IMG/VR virus record: IMGVR_UViG_3300030060_001315
Location: 1-31,394 of that record
Source of the DNA: a virus
Direction: 5' to 3' (one strand)
DNA: 31,394 nt
The notes under the pieces were generated by a model, which was not told where the DNA came from, did no database searches, and saw only the letters and a list, made by a program, of their open reading frames with translations. Both the position numbers and the translations under genes were made by a program. Shown piece after piece: positions 22,836 through 30,751 of the stretch (position 1 is its first letter; every line of letters starts with the position of its first letter).

Positions 22836-24149
22836 TTACTGTACGTAGTATCTTCCAACATTAGCGTCTATTTCATAATACATTCTCATCATTATAGCGT
22901 CAGCATAATCCGGTGATCTACCTAATAATTCTTTTATTGTATCTTTACCTATAATAGCTAGTTTTGTATCTTTGTCTATACCTGTCCTCCTTACTTGTTC
23001 TAATTCAGATATGATTATAGTTTTTAATTCTGTATTATCTGTATATAAGCATACCTCATCTTTATTTATTAACTCAGCTAATTTGTAATAACATTGTGTT
23101 TTGAGGTTTCTGTAATTTTCTCCTTTTAACGCTTTAGATCCATTTACAAAACCTCTACATCTAAGTATATCTTTAACACCTCCTCCAACACCATCTTCAT
23201 CTACAATTATGTTATATGTATTTACTACATATTTGTTTTGTAATTCTTTAATCTTATTAGCGCAATCCGTAACACTACTAACATCCATTTGAACATACTT
23301 AATTACTTTTAGACCTTTCCATACAATTATTACAGTCCTATCATTTCCAAACCTCGCTATGTCCGCACTAATGTAATAATTATCACCTTTGACGGACTTA
23401 TTTTCAAAAGAGGTCTGTAACCTATCCCACTCTATTAACCTGTCGTCTGCGTCATCATACTCCCAATTACCATATAATAGTCTTTGTTTGCTAATATTGT
23501 CTAATTTCTTTAATTGTTCCTCATAGTGTTTTGATATGTGTGGATTGTCTGTAACTAATGATTGTATAAATTTTCTATACTTAGGTAACTCATTATTTTC
23601 ATGAGGTCTATAAAAGTCTGTATATACCCAATTCTTAGCAGGATTGCAAGTAAGTAATAGTTTCGGTATTAAATTATAGTCATCTAATTTATACCTTAGT
23701 CTTGAAGATAATACTGATTTTGCTTTTTCTCTAATCTGATTACACTCATCTACAAATGCTAGTGTTATTTCTAAACTTCCTAAACTATCATAGTTTGGAT
23801 CTGCAGGGTAATGAAATAAATCCTTAAGAAACACCTCACTACCATTATAAAACTTTATAGTATTACTATTTCCGTTATATACATAGTGTTCTCCAAACTT
23901 TAGATTAAATTGTCCGCATACCTCAAAGAAAGTATTTAGTGTTGTAGCTTTTAAATTAGATAACTTAGATCTACCTATAAGACATCTAATACCTCTATAC
24001 TGTAAACAATTAATTATAACCCAAGCACAACCAGTCCATGACTTACCTCCCCCAGCTGCACCACCAAACAATATTTCTGTTGTTTCGTTATCAAATAGGT
24101 AATTAAAACATTCTCTTTGTTTCTTACTTAGATCCGGTATAATCCTCAT
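22836..24149 (-). CDS. Terminase large subunit
   Basis: This 437-residue protein is the packaging motor and nuclease. Walker A is GGAAGGGKS (29-37) and Walker B with the catalytic acid is LAFVDE (130-135). A coupling motif is near TCNP (167-170). The RNase H-like nuclease has its acids at Asp263 (SADIARFGNDRT), Asp317/Asp319 (VDEDGVGGG) and Asp414/Asp417 (SPDYADA). The set is complete, so the protein should be active. It overlaps the small subunit by 26 bases. The length is normal for this group. Confidence 0.92.
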   Translation of the reverse strand: MRIIPDLSKKQRECFNYLFDNETTEILFGGAAGGGKSWTGCAWVIINCLQYRGIRCLIGRSKLSNLKATTLNTFFEVCGQFNLKFGEHYVYNGNSNTIKFYNGSEVFLKDLFHYPADPNYDSLGSLEITLAFVDECNQIREKAKSVLSSRLRYKLDDYNLIPKLLLTCNPAKNWVYTDFYRPHENNELPKYRKFIQSLVTDNPHISKHYEEQLKKLDNISKQRLLYGNWEYDDADDRLIEWDRLQTSFENKSVKGDNYYISADIARFGNDRTVIIVWKGLKVIKYVQMDVSSVTDCANKIKELQNKYVVNTYNIIVDEDGVGGGVKDILRCRGFVNGSKALKGENYRNLKTQCYYKLAELINKDEVCLYTDNTELKTIIISELEQVRRTGIDKDTKLAIIGKDTIKELLGRSPDYADAIMMRMYYEIDANVGRYYVQ

Positions 24150-24486
24150 TAAGATTTAACTCTATTGTAATAGGTTCGTTCCCTGTTGTAATATCAAGCT
24201 CCGACTTCTCAATGTATCCTCTTTTCTTTCCTTTTGTTTTTAAATAGAATATTGTAGCACTTGTAGAACCATCCTTCATTTGTGTGTGCAATTGACTTTC
24301 TGCAAAATCCAAAGCTATCTCCTCAATATCTCTTACTTTGTCTGCAAACTCTGTATCCTCTTTTAACCATTTGTAGTATGTAGACCTTGGTATATCAGAA
24401 GTTCTACATGCTGTAGTTACTACACCTAATGATTGTTCTAACGCTTTTAGAAATAAATCCTTTTTTATATGCCCACTATTGCTCAT
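24124..24486 (-). CDS. Terminase small subunit
   Basis: This 120-residue protein has an N-terminal helix-turn-helix ('LGVVTTACRTSDIPRSTYYK', then 'WLKEDTEFADKVRDIEE') that binds packaging-site DNA. A helical oligomerisation part follows ('ESQLHTQMKDGSTSATIFYL') with 'KTKGKKRGY', a frequent end in small terminases of related phages. It overlaps both the large subunit and the IbrB-like gene upstream, tying packaging genes to the sulfur-type module in one transcript. Confidence 0.8.
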   Translation of the reverse strand: MSNSGHIKKDLFLKALEQSLGVVTTACRTSDIPRSTYYKWLKEDTEFADKVRDIEEIALDFAESQLHTQMKDGSTSATIFYLKTKGKKRGYIEKSELDITTGNEPITIELNLNEDYTGSK

Positions 24487-24997
24487 CTTCTTTGTCTTTA
24501 GGTTTCCATGATTTGCTAAACTCTAAGTCTTTAAATACTTCTGATTTTGGGATACCTGCTCTATATAATAATCTAACTACTTCCTCTTTCTCCATTTGTA
24601 GTCTTTTCATTATCTCTTTTCCTTCTAATCCTTGTTCTACCATCTCTACAAGTATATTACTCATCTCTAATACTCCGTGTGTTCCTCTTGCTCTATTGTG
24701 TCTTATAGTAGCCATTTGTTGTTGGGATATATCTTTAGGTGTAATCATAACAGTAGGTACATATCCATCTGTTAAGTCTTTTAGATCTTCTGATACTGTC
24801 CACCTATGAAATCCATCTACTATTGTCATATCCGGATTTATTACAATAGGCTGCGTCCAACCATCTTCCTGTATAGATATTTTTAGTAACTCCATTTCAG
24901 TACTAGCAACTCTATTCGGATTATAGTTATTAGGTTTTAACTCTTCTCTTTTTCTCCAAACAATATTATTTAGAGGTTGTTTATCGTATTTTTTCAT
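24476..24997 (-). CDS. IbrB/YbdM-like ParB-fold protein
   Basis: This 173-residue protein has a ParB/Srx-type fold: 'LKPNNYNPNRVASTEMELLK', 'IQEDGWTQPIVINPDMTIVD' and the nucleotide-pocket-like motif DGFHRW (61-66). The following 'ATIRHNRARGTHGVLEMSNI' (96-115) is specific to the IbrB/YbdM family rather than chromosome-partition ParB. In enterobacteria IbrB is encoded beside IbrA, a PAPS-reductase-family protein, and the same pair is found here. Proteins of this fold can bind or hydrolyse CTP or ATP; activity in this family is not settled. It overlaps the small terminase gene by 11 bases. Confidence 0.75.
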   Translation of the reverse strand: MKKYDKQPLNNIVWRKREELKPNNYNPNRVASTEMELLKISIQEDGWTQPIVINPDMTIVDGFHRWTVSEDLKDLTDGYVPTVMITPKDISQQQMATIRHNRARGTHGVLEMSNILVEMVEQGLEGKEIMKRLQMEKEEVVRLLYRAGIPKSEVFKDLEFSKSWKPKDKEDEQ

Positions 24998-25040
24998 ATA
25001 TAATCATTATTAATATTATTAACCAAAACAAGCAAAACAT
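24981..25040 (-). CDS. Possible 19-aa membrane microprotein
   Basis: A 20-codon frame fills the 53-base space between IbrA- and IbrB-like genes and runs 17 bases into the latter. The product, beginning MFCLFWLIILIMIIYEK, is almost fully hydrophobic with a charged end, i.e. one short membrane span. No other small frame in this gap is open. AT-rich spacers can give such frames by chance, so support is weak. Confidence 0.25.
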   Translation of the reverse strand: MFCLFWLIILIMIIYEKIR

Positions 25041-25050
25041 TATAAACTCA

Positions 25051-26217
25051 TTACTTTCCATATCTATGTATAGCTTCTTCCATTGTTATTCCCATCTTAT
25101 CTCTTTTCTTTACCGCTGCATTAAATAATGCGTTTATCTGTCTACCTTTAAAATCACCACGCAAAGCACATCTACATAAAAATTCCCAAGACATACCTGT
25201 AATAGGATGCGGTTCACTATCCTCTATTTGATCTCTTGTCTTATTATAATGATAAGTTTTCATGTAGTTATTAAGTGTTTTCATTACTTCGTTTTTGTAT
25301 TTAGGACTATAACTATCTAGTATAACTTTTGTGTATTCTTGATATGTTAAATGTTCCGGTTTGTTTTTAGGATTACTGTATAACTCAGTGTTTCCGTATC
25401 TCCATGCTGTAGCAACTCCAGGTACTCTATTTAACATTTTACTCCACATCTCAGGAAAACATTCACTATATATCCATAAACCTCTTAACGGTTCTTCTCC
25501 ATACGGAGGACATACTCTTTGTGTAAGATACTTTCCGTATAGTTTTGTTTTATTAAATACATCATAAGTCTTATTATAATCCCAACCTAACTTATGTACT
25601 GCTAACCATACATCTTGACTACTCCAATCGTAAATAGGATGAGCCATTACTGTATTCCATACAGCACTACTTTGTATATAACTATCATTCTTTTTCGATG
25701 TTATTACAGACATTCTTCTCATACTTTCTTCCGTTCTAACTCCTGTAAGATATATAACAGAACCTACCTCTTTATCAAAATAATACGGACTAAAATCTTG
25801 AAATGATAATCCTTTCTTCCATCTCTTATGATCTGTAATAGCTTTTTCTGGTAGAGGTCTTACCCATAAATCCTCTTTATCTTTATCCCAACAATACCAA
25901 TAAGGCTCTTCATTACTACAAGCGTTTCTGTGTTTCCACTCCATACAAAGCCATATAAAATTAATATCTTCTATTTCAGACACTCTTTGTACATATTCAA
26001 CGGTTGGTGGATGTACAGCCTCTTCATCAAAAAACATTACATCTAACGGTAGCTTATCCATTTCTCTTGCAACTTCTAACGCAACATTTAATACCGCTGT
26101 ACTATCTTTACCACCACTAAAACTAACACAAACCTTATCGTAATTTTTAAAACAATATTCTATACGCTTTTTACTTGCTATATAAACATTATCTTCTTGA
26201 TAGTTTTTTACACTCAT
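25051..26217 (-). CDS. PAPS-reductase-family protein, IbrA-like (DUF3440 type)
   Basis: This 388-residue PP-loop ATPase has SGGKDS at 34-39 for adenylation chemistry. 'DVMFFDEEAVHPPTVEY' (59-75), 'LTGVRTEESMRR' (157-168), 'AHPIYDWSSQDVWLAVHK' (192-209) and C236 follow, as in PAPS-reductase / DUF3440 proteins. Members activate a substrate with ATP, often to transfer or reduce sulfur, but no cysteine pair for sulfite formation is seen. Pairing with an IbrB-like gene downstream points to the IbrA type, whose reaction is unknown. It follows the bicupin by one base. DNA sulfur modification is a possibility, not shown. Confidence 0.75.
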   Translation of the reverse strand: MSVKNYQEDNVYIASKKRIEYCFKNYDKVCVSFSGGKDSTAVLNVALEVAREMDKLPLDVMFFDEEAVHPPTVEYVQRVSEIEDINFIWLCMEWKHRNACSNEEPYWYCWDKDKEDLWVRPLPEKAITDHKRWKKGLSFQDFSPYYFDKEVGSVIYLTGVRTEESMRRMSVITSKKNDSYIQSSAVWNTVMAHPIYDWSSQDVWLAVHKLGWDYNKTYDVFNKTKLYGKYLTQRVCPPYGEEPLRGLWIYSECFPEMWSKMLNRVPGVATAWRYGNTELYSNPKNKPEHLTYQEYTKVILDSYSPKYKNEVMKTLNNYMKTYHYNKTRDQIEDSEPHPITGMSWEFLCRCALRGDFKGRQINALFNAAVKKRDKMGITMEEAIHRYGK

Positions 26218-26218
26218 A

Positions 26219-27064
26219 TTATTGTGTTCTAATTGTTTCTATTGATCCAGCACTAACAAAATCTCCTTCATCATTCTGTACTATTGTTCTATTAATCATA
26301 GGATGTACTATGTCTGTTGCTCCAAAATCACTATCCGGATGAAAAGCTATTACATCCATATGACTATCCGTTGTATCAAATTTGTGTGTTCCTGCTAAAT
26401 GTATCTTACCATCTAATCCTACTCCTTCTGAGTTTTCCATACCTTCTTGCCATTCTTTTATCACAAATATCATACCCTTAAATAAAGGTAGAGTACCAAA
26501 AGGTGTAACACATTCTCCATATCCATCAGCTACAATACCTATTCTATGACTCGGATGCGTATGCGCTGTTTGTGTTATATTCTTTGGAAAGTGTAAATGA
26601 TTAAGACAGGGATCTCCTAACTTTACCGGAGGTATTAATAAACTGTCTGTACAACCATCAATATATTTAAGTCTGCCGGTTTTTTCTATATTACCTCCAA
26701 ATGTATTCATTGCCCTGTATTGTGTTTGAGGATATATACCTTTTGTATGCAATACTTCTATTAATATAAACTTAGATCCATGTACTTTCTGACTTATAAA
26801 AATTCCATCTACACTAAAATAACTACCAGCAGTTATAAACATATTATTATATAAGTTTGTTATTATAGTGGCGTTACCTTCGTACACATATCCGTAATAA
26901 CTACAATCATTGCTTAACTCAGGCAATCCTTCATTATCTATAACATTGTAGTATCTTATCGGATACTTTTCATGTTTACTATCATCAAATAGTAATCCTG
27001 CTTTTTCATTTGAGAAACTAATAAATGCTAGGTTCTCTTCATATTTTATGTTTTCTGGTATCAT
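26219..27064 (-). CDS. Bicupin-like metal-binding protein
   Basis: This protein has 281 residues. Two cupin-type beta-barrels are suggested: a degenerate one (about 45-110) and a full one (about 150-245). The metal site is probably formed by His156/His158 (NHLHFP) and His168/His170/His173 (TAHTHPSHRIG), with His242 near 'IAFHPDSDFGATDIVHPMIN'. A 'GYGECVTPFGTLPLFKGMIF' turn region follows the first motif. Cupins act as dioxygenases, isomerases or binding proteins; the reaction here is not known. The gene is packed tightly between the ParB-like and IbrA-like genes, so it belongs to the same module. Confidence 0.6.
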   Translation of the reverse strand: MIPENIKYEENLAFISFSNEKAGLLFDDSKHEKYPIRYYNVIDNEGLPELSNDCSYYGYVYEGNATIITNLYNNMFITAGSYFSVDGIFISQKVHGSKFILIEVLHTKGIYPQTQYRAMNTFGGNIEKTGRLKYIDGCTDSLLIPPVKLGDPCLNHLHFPKNITQTAHTHPSHRIGIVADGYGECVTPFGTLPLFKGMIFVIKEWQEGMENSEGVGLDGKIHLAGTHKFDTTDSHMDVIAFHPDSDFGATDIVHPMINRTIVQNDEGDFVSAGSIETIRTQ

Positions 27065-27070
27065 ATTTTT

Positions 27071-27637
27071 TTATTTATAGTTATTTACTAAGACCATTAA
27101 GGCCTCCTCTAATTTTATATCCTCTCTTTCTCTTATTGTATTTAGTGTTTCTACAAGTTTCTTTTTGTTTTCATATAACATAATACACTCAAACTTTCCG
27201 TAGTCCTCATCTTTTACACTAGGTTTTACATCTTCAAATTGTAGATCATCATCTAGTTTAAAATAATCATCTTCATTTTGCCAAACATCAAGCCCCCAAT
27301 CCTTTAACTCTATTGTATTCCAAGTATTACCTAAAACATCCCAGTTCCAATCCCCAAAGTTTACATTGTCTTTTACTATAAATTCTCTTTTCTGTTTGTC
27401 TGTTAATCCTGTAGCTATCTTGATTGGTACTTCTTTTAATCCCGCTTCTATAGCTGCTTTATGTCGCATGTTTCCTCCCAGTATAGTCATATCTTCATCT
27501 ACTACAATAGGACGCAATTCTAACATTTCAGGAAATTCTCTAATACTATTAACTAACTTATCGAACTTTGCGTTCTTTATAATTCTTGGATTATCTTCGT
27601 TAGTTTTTAATTTGTTGATTTTCATTTTCTTATCCAT
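27071..27637 (-). CDS. ParB-like nuclease-fold protein
   Basis: This protein has 188 residues. The N-terminal ParB-type domain reads 'NPRIIKNAKFDKLVNSIREF', 'PIVVDEDMTILGGNMRHKAA' (GGNMRHKA at 54-61) and 'VPIKIATGLTDKQKREFIVK'. The region 'DNVNFGDWNWDVLGNTWN' (90-107) with 'LKDWGLD' is typical of phage ParB proteins linked to DNA modification. It differs from the second ParB-like protein of the module, which carries the IbrB-specific motif. The start overlaps a CCCTTTATATAT copy; Met5 is an alternative. It could bind DNA or nucleotide and direct the other enzymes. Confidence 0.7.
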   Translation of the reverse strand: MDKKMKINKLKTNEDNPRIIKNAKFDKLVNSIREFPEMLELRPIVVDEDMTILGGNMRHKAAIEAGLKEVPIKIATGLTDKQKREFIVKDNVNFGDWNWDVLGNTWNTIELKDWGLDVWQNEDDYFKLDDDLQFEDVKPSVKDEDYGKFECIMLYENKKKLVETLNTIREREDIKLEEALMVLVNNYK

Positions 27638-29462: not shown

Positions 29463-29867
29463 TTATTCACAATCTTTTATTAATATCTTTACTTTCTCCT
29501 TATAATGATCGATCATTTCAACATATTCATGCCTCATATACTTAACTGTAGACTTACTCATTAATACTAACTCATCAGATATGCCTTCCTCTATCCTCAA
29601 ATCTAATAGTTTTCCAAAAGTGTATTGTTCTCCTTGATTAAACATATTACATTTTACACATTGGACTTGTACATTAATTTCATCCCATCTTGTTGGTAGA
29701 TGTCTTCTACTCTGAAAATGTCCTGCTTGTAGTTTTTTATAATGATCTTTTTTACCGCAAGTAAAACATTCTGTAATTCCGTTTTTGTCTGCATATCTTA
29801 ATCTTATATACAAACTAAACCATTTATCTAATTCTTTCTTTAGTTTAGGAATGGATTTTTTTTTCAC
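29463..29867 (-). CDS. NinG-like recombination nuclease
   Basis: This 134-residue protein has the zinc-bound HNH-like pattern of lambda NinG (Rap): C34-x2-C37 ('CFTCGKKD'), His50 (LQAGHFQSR), 'RWDEINVQVQCVKCNMFNQG' with C70-x2-C73-N74, and 'EQYTFGKLLD'. NinG-type proteins act on branched DNA in recombination; a structure-specific endonuclease role is expected. It starts in an ATGA-like junction with the winged-helix gene upstream. Metal ligands are all present. Confidence 0.75.
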   Translation of the reverse strand: MKKKSIPKLKKELDKWFSLYIRLRYADKNGITECFTCGKKDHYKKLQAGHFQSRRHLPTRWDEINVQVQCVKCNMFNQGEQYTFGKLLDLRIEEGISDELVLMSKSTVKYMRHEYVEMIDHYKEKVKILIKDCE

Positions 29868-30169: not shown

Positions 30170-30293
30170 AATGTAATAATTTAAATAATGTTAATAATAA
30201 ATAGGTTAATAAAAAAGCTATTCCAACTAGTACTATACATACTAATACAATCGGAATAGTTATAATAATAAGTATATATTGATATACATTCAT
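30126..30293 (-). CDS. 55-aa membrane protein
   Basis: A 56-codon frame is coupled to the Dam-type gene by an ATGA overlap. The product begins MNVYQYILIIITIPIVLV and has a long hydrophobic zone (about 6-38), i.e. one or two spans, then a polar end. It continues 44 bases into the winged-helix gene in another frame, where its polar tail is encoded. Length, coupling and coherent hydrophobicity favour a real gene. Possible roles are membrane exclusion or lysis timing. Confidence 0.5.
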   Translation of the reverse strand: MNVYQYILIIITIPIVLVCIVLVGIAFLLTYLLLTLFKLLHYENKTLSQHKQFND

Positions 30294-30751
30294 AATATAG
30301 TTAATTGGTTATCTAATTTAAATTTTTGTTTATATATAACTAACATACTTGGAAAAGGAGCGCTACCGCTTTTATTAGGATTCGTAAATTTTAATCTACC
30401 TTTTATAAATATTAGATCTGCTTTGTTATATATATATTTGTGAAAGTATTTAGTGTCTGTTCTTACAGGTATTAACATAACTATTAATTTTGTTTTATCT
30501 GATTCCTCATAACACTTTTGTACCCATAAGTCTATTTGACTATACGGAGGATTACACCAAACTACTTCATTACTCCAATCTTTAAAAAGTCCGTTATTTT
30601 CTTTAGTATAGTATTTTTTACATTTATAGTTTGTATCGCTTGCTGCTACATCTATTGTAAAATTGTATTGTATATTTAATTTTATAAATAAATCATTAGG
30701 TGTTCCCCACTCATCTGTTTCAGAACTAAATATAACTTTCTCTCCTTTCAT
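30290..30751 (-). CDS. Phage-type DNA N6-adenine methyltransferase (Dam family)
   Basis: This 153-residue protein fits the small phage Dam family: 'FSSETDEWGTPNDLFIKLN' at the N terminus, 'FTIDVAASDTNYKCKKYY' (DVAA at 34-37), the catalytic NPPY at 67-70 ('VVWCNPPYSQIDLWV') and 'PFPSMLVIYK' near the end. It would methylate adenine in phage DNA, protecting it from host restriction or timing replication. No companion restriction enzyme is present, as usual for phages. Its start overlaps the gene upstream in ATGA. Target site is unknown. Confidence 0.8.
   Translation of the reverse strand: MKGEKVIFSSETDEWGTPNDLFIKLNIQYNFTIDVAASDTNYKCKKYYTKENNGLFKDWSNEVVWCNPPYSQIDLWVQKCYEESDKTKLIVMLIPVRTDTKYFHKYIYNKADLIFIKGRLKFTNPNKSGSAPFPSMLVIYKQKFKLDNQLTIL

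Follow-up and report, generated by a model that had tools for sequence, protein, structure and literature searches.

What do four tightly packed genes, encoding two ParB-type proteins, a bicupin and an IbrA-like PP-loop protein, do directly in front of the terminase genes of a phage? They lie in the IMG/VR virus record IMGVR_UViG_3300030060_001315, the whole 31,394 bases of which are hereafter called the window. IbrA and IbrB are known by name; what is new is a phage module in which this pair is extended by a conserved cupin and by a second ParB-type protein, ParB1. The four genes form an accessory cassette that is conserved among tailed phages, and we propose that the cassette carries out ATP-dependent group chemistry not involving sulfur, most likely marking the phage's own DNA around packaging. 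Because the chemistry rests on inference, we give this proposal about an even chance. An original prediction, made from the sequence alone, had placed four packed genes with the motifs GGNMRHKA, SGGKDS and RHNRARGTHG beside the terminase, and all of these open reading frames (ORFs) were found where it had put them, on the minus strand, real and intact. The cassette and the terminase genes that follow it are (aa, amino acids):

27071-27637, minus strand: ParB1, first gene of the cassette, a stand-alone ParB/Srx N-terminal-domain protein with GGNMRHKA (188 aa)
26219-27064, minus strand: bicupin according to an AlphaFold2 model and fold comparison, a predicted metal enzyme (281 aa)
25051-26217, minus strand: IbrA-like PP-loop N-type ATP pyrophosphatase with DUF3440 and SGGKDS (388 aa)
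24476-24997, minus strand: IbrB/YbdM-like ParB protein with RHNRARGTHG, an NTP (nucleoside triphosphate)-binding-type domain and a putative helix-turn-helix (HTH) (173 aa)
24124-24486, minus strand: terminase small subunit TerS, context outside the cassette (phrog_309, phrog_4044)
22836-24149, minus strand: terminase large subunit TerL, context (PF03237, PF04466; 53% identity to Flavobacterium phage 11b TerL)

A conserved cassette of tailed phages

Recurrence was assessed in two samples. In the first, anchored on the cupin, alignment found 187 viral relatives, of which 80 were kept, and 75 bacterial loci; in the second, IbrB served as bait so as to avoid anchoring on the cupin. Only contigs with enough flanking sequence enter the cassette counts. 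Close relatives of the query and contigs from metagenomes make up most of either sample. The viral order is ParB1, cupin, IbrA, IbrB, TerS and TerL; in some loci a second short PP-loop protein and a class II glutamine amidotransferase stand, in that order, between cupin and IbrA, and a small extra gene between IbrA and IbrB. Around the cupin, ParB1 was found in 70/71 viral contigs, IbrA in 70/70, IbrB in 54/55 and TerL in 43/44. With IbrB as the anchor, IbrA was present in 69/69, TerL in 64/68, and the cupin in its usual place in 47/49, or 49/49 when two relocated copies are included. In these two loci (L238 and L243) a divergent cupin, 24-30% identical, sits on the other side of IbrB and retains the metal-motif residues of HxHPxxR, HHFRT and HPMxN. 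Thus, the cupin is kept even under a changed gene order. The second PP-loop protein follows the cupin in about 25 viral loci, and the amidotransferase, seen in 9 loci with an N-terminal MCGI in 9/9, always occurs alongside it. That the genes make up a pathway-like module linked to packaging, as the original prediction had expected, is supported by the cassette counts; the conserved neighbourhood, the lack of which it had named as grounds against the idea, is clear in both viral samples.

Within the window the genes are separated by 6 base pairs (bp; ParB1-cupin), 1 bp (cupin-IbrA) and 53 bp (IbrA-IbrB), while the overlaps are 11 bp for IbrB-TerS and 26 bp for TerS-TerL. A terminator-like site on the minus strand was looked for at the cassette and none was found. 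Given the small gaps, the overlaps and this negative result, the cassette and the terminase genes are likely to be co-transcribed. The guanine-plus-cytosine content is like that of the remaining genome (31.7% vs 30.8%). Compared with the relative L002, the proportion of nonsynonymous differences (pN) is 0.168 for the cupin, 0.167 for IbrA, 0.094 for IbrB and 0.283 for TerL, the synonymous proportion (pS) being saturated; the figures for cupin, IbrA and IbrB indicate strong purifying selection on the cassette. Since pN is low and dozens of independent contigs preserve the order, the arrangement is far beyond chance.

Three minor features of these loci may be recorded. An unnamed family of ~165 aa (FWEMGRP...VLN), with no Pfam match, lies between IbrA and IbrB in 17 viral loci (for example L003:7978-8469, L006:2669-3163 and L042:4371-4865). 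A 119-aa SET-domain-like protein is encoded between ParB1 and IbrA at L238:3492-3848, and a 710-aa TerL at L005:3052-5181 contains an intein-like insert, starting with CFVGETLVKT and ending with VHN, before its C-terminal part.

Exchange in front of unrelated terminases

Among the TerL proteins that follow the cassette, median identity is 24% and 37% of pairs cannot be aligned, while IbrB reaches a median of 74%; immediately downstream of IbrB, genes from several small-terminase families are found. The closest named TerL relatives of the window are those of Flavobacterium phage 11b (53%), Cellulophaga phi10:1 (48%) and Polaribacter P12002L; a genome-wide search for IbrA in these three phages found none, and only small unknown genes precede their terminase. 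Because the terminases are often unrelated and near TerL relatives lack IbrA, the cassette appears as an optional accessory that is exchanged horizontally. The exchange does not concern a single unit. Evolutionary distances of IbrA and IbrB correlate with r 0.71, while every other pairing, with TerL as well, gives 0.19-0.47; inheritance of all four genes as one block was therefore rejected, and the four do not always travel together.

Among named phages, a tblastn search of INPHARED with the cupin gave no match, and IbrA/IbrB pairs occur in about 215-219 records. The original prediction had described such pairs as known from enterobacteria; this range is too narrow, since they are common in phages. 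It was right that their chemistry is not established: a literature search, with many subscription papers outside its scope, found no paper on the four-gene set or on IbrA/IbrB chemistry, an absence that is itself unproven. Like E. coli YbdN/YbdM (phrog_2302/phrog_2159), the pair in the window consists of a PP-loop plus DUF3440 enzyme adjoining an IbrB with YNPN, DGFHR and NRARGxH; unlike YbdN/YbdM, it lies in a longer cassette before the terminase, with bicupin and ParB1 and, in relatives, often with a PP-loop protein and amidotransferase. In E. coli, CitR represses ybdNM (PMC9068703).

No invariant cysteine in IbrA

IbrA matches PF01507 (PAPS_reduct; E value 6.8e-14, 52.7 bits against a Pfam cut-off of 22.5), C-terminally DUF3440 (PF11922; E 1.1e-10, 42 bits against 25) and phrog_2302 (E 7.5e-84). 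Its SGGKDS region is invariant at F33, S34 and G36-S39, and this motif, together with certain acidic, Arg and Trp residues, is kept in all 75 phage homologues and in five other phage IbrAs. The AlphaFold2 model (predicted local distance difference test score, pLDDT, 89) is nearest to the PAPS domain of FAD synthase (Z 15.5), APS reductase (14.7) and CysD (14.6); LarE and TtuA are also among the fold matches, which barely cover the C-terminal helical part (~residues 255-388).

FAD synthase and CysD transfer AMP onto an oxyanion and have no catalytic Cys; PP-loop thiolases and sulfonucleotide reductases rely on cysteines. No invariant Cys was found in IbrA and its 75 phage homologues, the best-kept positions being C91 (0.91), C236 (0.91) and C348 (0.87). 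In the clade that carries the amidotransferase these cysteines are mostly absent, and C91 is missing from E. coli YbdN. In the second PP-loop protein no Cys is invariant, the best column reaching 0.45. As enzymes of sulfur transfer or reduction use Cys, such chemistry is unlikely to be common to these IbrAs. The DndC equivalog TIGR03183 scores 31 bits against a cut-off of 290, and the CysH (PAPS/APS reductase) equivalog TIGR00434 scores 17 against 165, the catalytic C-terminal Cys of the latter not being invariant. IbrA shares the PP-loop superfamily with the phosphorothioation proteins DndC, SspD and BrxP, to which it is weakly similar, but it falls far under the DndC cut-off, has no conserved Cys set and no recurring Dnd/Ssp partners: neither a cysteine desulfurase nor a DndD/E-like partner recurs in the cassette loci. 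The original prediction had offered sulfur-type marking of phage DNA as an example of the pathway; examined through conserved cysteines and sulfurtransferase matches, this idea was given up.

The bicupin and its adenylating neighbours

Searched alone, the cupin has no significant match in Pfam or PHROG. Its AlphaFold2 model, built with 81 homologues, is a double cupin barrel (pLDDT 94), so that the earlier designation as a bicupin holds; "His-rich" is apt only in a mild sense (13 His in 281 residues). In fold comparison (VIA-align) it resembles the ureidoglycine-aminohydrolase family (DUF861; Z 18.9), BacB (16.5) and AerE (15.8), and salicylate dioxygenase also lies within this range of 15.8-18.9; identity is only 10-14%, at which a shared function is not readable. 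The C-terminal barrel carries H168-x-H170-x3-R174 ... H227. H168 and H227 are present in 81/81 homologues (44 viral, 37 bacterial) and H170 in 80/81, and R174, Q165, H242 and H254 are also kept in nearly all of them, consistent with a putative metal site of three-His-like type. Individual cupins weakly match AraC-type sensor domains.

In bacteria the cupin is repeatedly found next to PP-loop ATPases. At 23 of 69 bacterial cupin loci such an enzyme is encoded no more than two genes away, in every case on the strand of the cupin, and PP-loop ATPases make up 27/253 of near ORFs vs 5/255 of far ones. The types found are Asn synthetase (PF00733, E 2.6e-47), a ~357-aa family with no Pfam match and, in likely prophages, IbrA-type proteins. 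An independent association is seen in mycobacteriophage Gaia, in which gp104, encoded next to IbrA (gp103), joins an ectoine synthase EctC domain (PF06339, E 1.3e-32) to an IbrB domain. Gaia thus resembles the window in joining an IbrA/IbrB pair to a cupin fold, and differs in that its EctC-family cupin is non-homologous at the sequence level and lies away from the terminase. The theme common to these loci would be a metal cupin with an adenylating, often amidating enzyme, which points to nitrogen rather than sulfur chemistry. Some EctC matches in faecal phages of INPHARED (L164) resemble bacterial ectoine operons and were left aside.

Two groups of bacterial cupin relatives have neighbours of other kinds. 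In Maricaulis and relatives (L085, L096-L100, L108) they adjoin NeuB-like, CMP-sugar transferase-like, ATP-grasp-like and sulfotransferase-like genes, which suggests that they take part in sugar pathways of the surface or of flagellin. In Nostocales and Hyella (L152-L157), genes resembling serine acetyltransferase and threonine aldolase come after the cupin.

IbrB, ParB1 and DNA as a plausible target

We asked whether the two ParB-type proteins indicate what the cassette acts on. IbrB belongs to phrog_2159 (E 4.3e-61), with Pfam ParB_N just below the cut-off, and shares the signatures YNPN, DGFHR and NRARGxH with E. coli YbdM, Gaia and Rasputia. Its profile aligns over 9-146 with ParB 4umk across two domains, including the DNA-binding part (ParB/Noc). 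ParB1 exceeds the cut-off for PF02195 (ParB_N, E 7.6e-8), and its N-terminal half matches ParB CTPases of the PDB at about 4e-10; G55, R58, N91 and G95 are 97-100% conserved in 72 homologues. It also matches the N-terminal part of ParB-methylase profiles (phrog_498, E 2e-26; PADLOC MTase_II, E 3e-9). Fusions of ParB_N with N6_N4_Mtase occur in Streptococcus Javan128 and Staphylococcus Sazerac, and ParB1 is 31% identical to the methylase-fused ParB domain over 149 aa (E 2e-14). In Javan128 the fusion lies three genes before TerL. These proteins thus share with the cassette a ParB1-homologous domain near TerL, and differ in that the attached enzyme is a methyltransferase. A weak ParB/Srx match is to SbnI (5uje, E 0.002), an amino-acid kinase.

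In Mycobacterium Akoma and Arthrobacter Salgado, IbrA-IbrB stands directly before the terminase, preceded by a ParB gene. In contrast to the cassette, no cupin was seen in these blocks, and their first ParB, considered as a ParB1 homologue, shows no homology detectable by BLASTP. The "methyltransferase" label of Salgado gp8 lacks Pfam support, as does the "GNAT" label of a gene adjoining a ParB1 homologue in Leptospira phage LE3; neither was used. In Microbacterium phage Rasputia (L166:1-1890), three consecutive ParB-like genes, the first of IbrB type, precede an HTH gene and the terminase.

DNA is a plausible target, given the DNA methylases that carry ParB1-type domains near terminases and the alignment of IbrB through the DNA-binding part of ParB. 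Of the DNA-acting pathway originally envisaged, this part stands as a conjecture, and the sulfur chemistry is not supported.

A proposed mechanism and its alternatives

We infer the following scheme, from the catalytic steps to the DNA target and the benefit. IbrA, through its PP-loop and PAPS-reductase fold, would adenylate an acidic or oxo group; in cassettes that encode them, the second PP-loop protein and the class II glutamine amidotransferase would supply amide nitrogen; and the metal bicupin may then oxidise, cyclise or isomerise the activated or amidated group. IbrB, the obligate partner of IbrA, would bind NTP and DNA and bring IbrA to its target, with ParB1, a relative of the methylase-fused domains, as a second NTP- and DNA-engaging component. 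The phage would gain protection of its DNA from host nucleases. In its most specific form, a new DNA hypermodification made by adenylation, amidation and cupin ring or oxidative chemistry, which IbrB/ParB1 would put in place when DNA is packaged, the scheme is tentative, and we would sooner doubt it than accept it.

Several observations weigh against DNA marking at packaging. The literature searched gives no chemistry for any IbrA/IbrB. IbrA-IbrB lies away from the terminase in Streptococcus Pika, Gaia, Flavobacterium 23T and Microcystis phages, so that coupling to packaging is not universal, and the cassette may lie beside packaging genes because insertion is tolerated there or because its expression is timed with the late operon. 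The distances of ParB1 and cupin follow the cassette no better than they follow TerL. Finally, bacterial cupin relatives occur in apparent small-molecule or sugar loci, which fit a diffusible product equally well as DNA.

This last point leads to the main rival, that the cassette synthesises or degrades a small molecule (a modified nucleotide, an amino-acid derivative or an immune signal), for example against nucleotide-based host defence or to alter host metabolism, and that DNA is not its substrate. FAD synthase, among the nearest folds of IbrA, is a small-molecule adenylyltransferase, the ParB/Srx relatives include SbnI, if weakly, and bacterial cupin relatives stand beside Asn synthetases and CysE-like, threonine-aldolase-like and sialic-acid-type genes. 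We nevertheless hold it to be unlikely, though worth serious attention: two ParB proteins, one aligning via the DNA-binding region, together with the ParB1-type methylase fusions, indicate DNA, and the steady position at the terminase would be unexpected for an early anti-defence function. Alternatively, IbrA/IbrB and ParB1 could be DNA-binding co-activators of late or prophage genes and the cupin a small-molecule sensor. This would agree with the original naming of IbrA/IbrB, which are described as co-activators of prophage gene expression (PMC4490671; PMC5874904), and with the weak AraC-type sensor matches of individual cupins, but the strictly conserved PP-loop and metal triad, the catalytic character of the invariant cupin residues and the added amidotransferase and PP-loop genes are enzyme-like, making the co-activator model improbable.

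Sulfur-type DNA marking, as phosphorothioate or thio-base, could draw on the PAPS-reductase fold, the weak similarity to DndC, BrxP and SspD, and LarE and TtuA in the fold list; it is very improbable in view of the cysteines, the DndC score and the missing partners described above. At least as improbable is modification of a protein such as the terminase or a capsid protein during assembly: the constant place beside the terminase genes speaks for it, yet those terminases are often unrelated and the cassette is also found away from them. Hardly credible is a ParB-type partition module of a phage-plasmid. Two ParB_N-type proteins are encoded, but the parB_part model gives them 18.0 and 22.6 against a cut-off of 58.45 bits, their partners are enzymes, and no ParA family recurs in the viral neighbourhoods examined.

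DNA marking by non-sulfur chemistry is thus the reading that we prefer. IbrA/IbrB pairs are carried by more than 200 sequenced phages and by E. coli, and the cassette shows which enzymes accompany them and favours Cys-free adenylation or amidation with a metal cupin over sulfur transfer. It also directs the search for a product to cultivable phages. Should that product be on DNA, it would represent a new phage route to genome marking just before packaging; should it be the hypermodification outlined above, the scattered phage and enterobacterial IbrA/IbrB pairs would be simpler versions of one DNA-modifying engine.

Other genes of the window

About 3 kb upstream of the cassette, at 30290-30751, the window encodes a Dam-like DNA N6-adenine methyltransferase (phrog_111, E 1.7e-56), with a NinG-like gene nearby at 29463-29867. 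The methylase also matches phrog_33262, which raised the idea of a PAPS-reductase/Dam fusion. This idea was rejected: the sole example opened, Salmonella phage Siskin gp52 (L167:2932-3618), is annotated as a PAPS reductase and is really a methylase-like gene of ~228 aa, so that its label is probably an annotation error.

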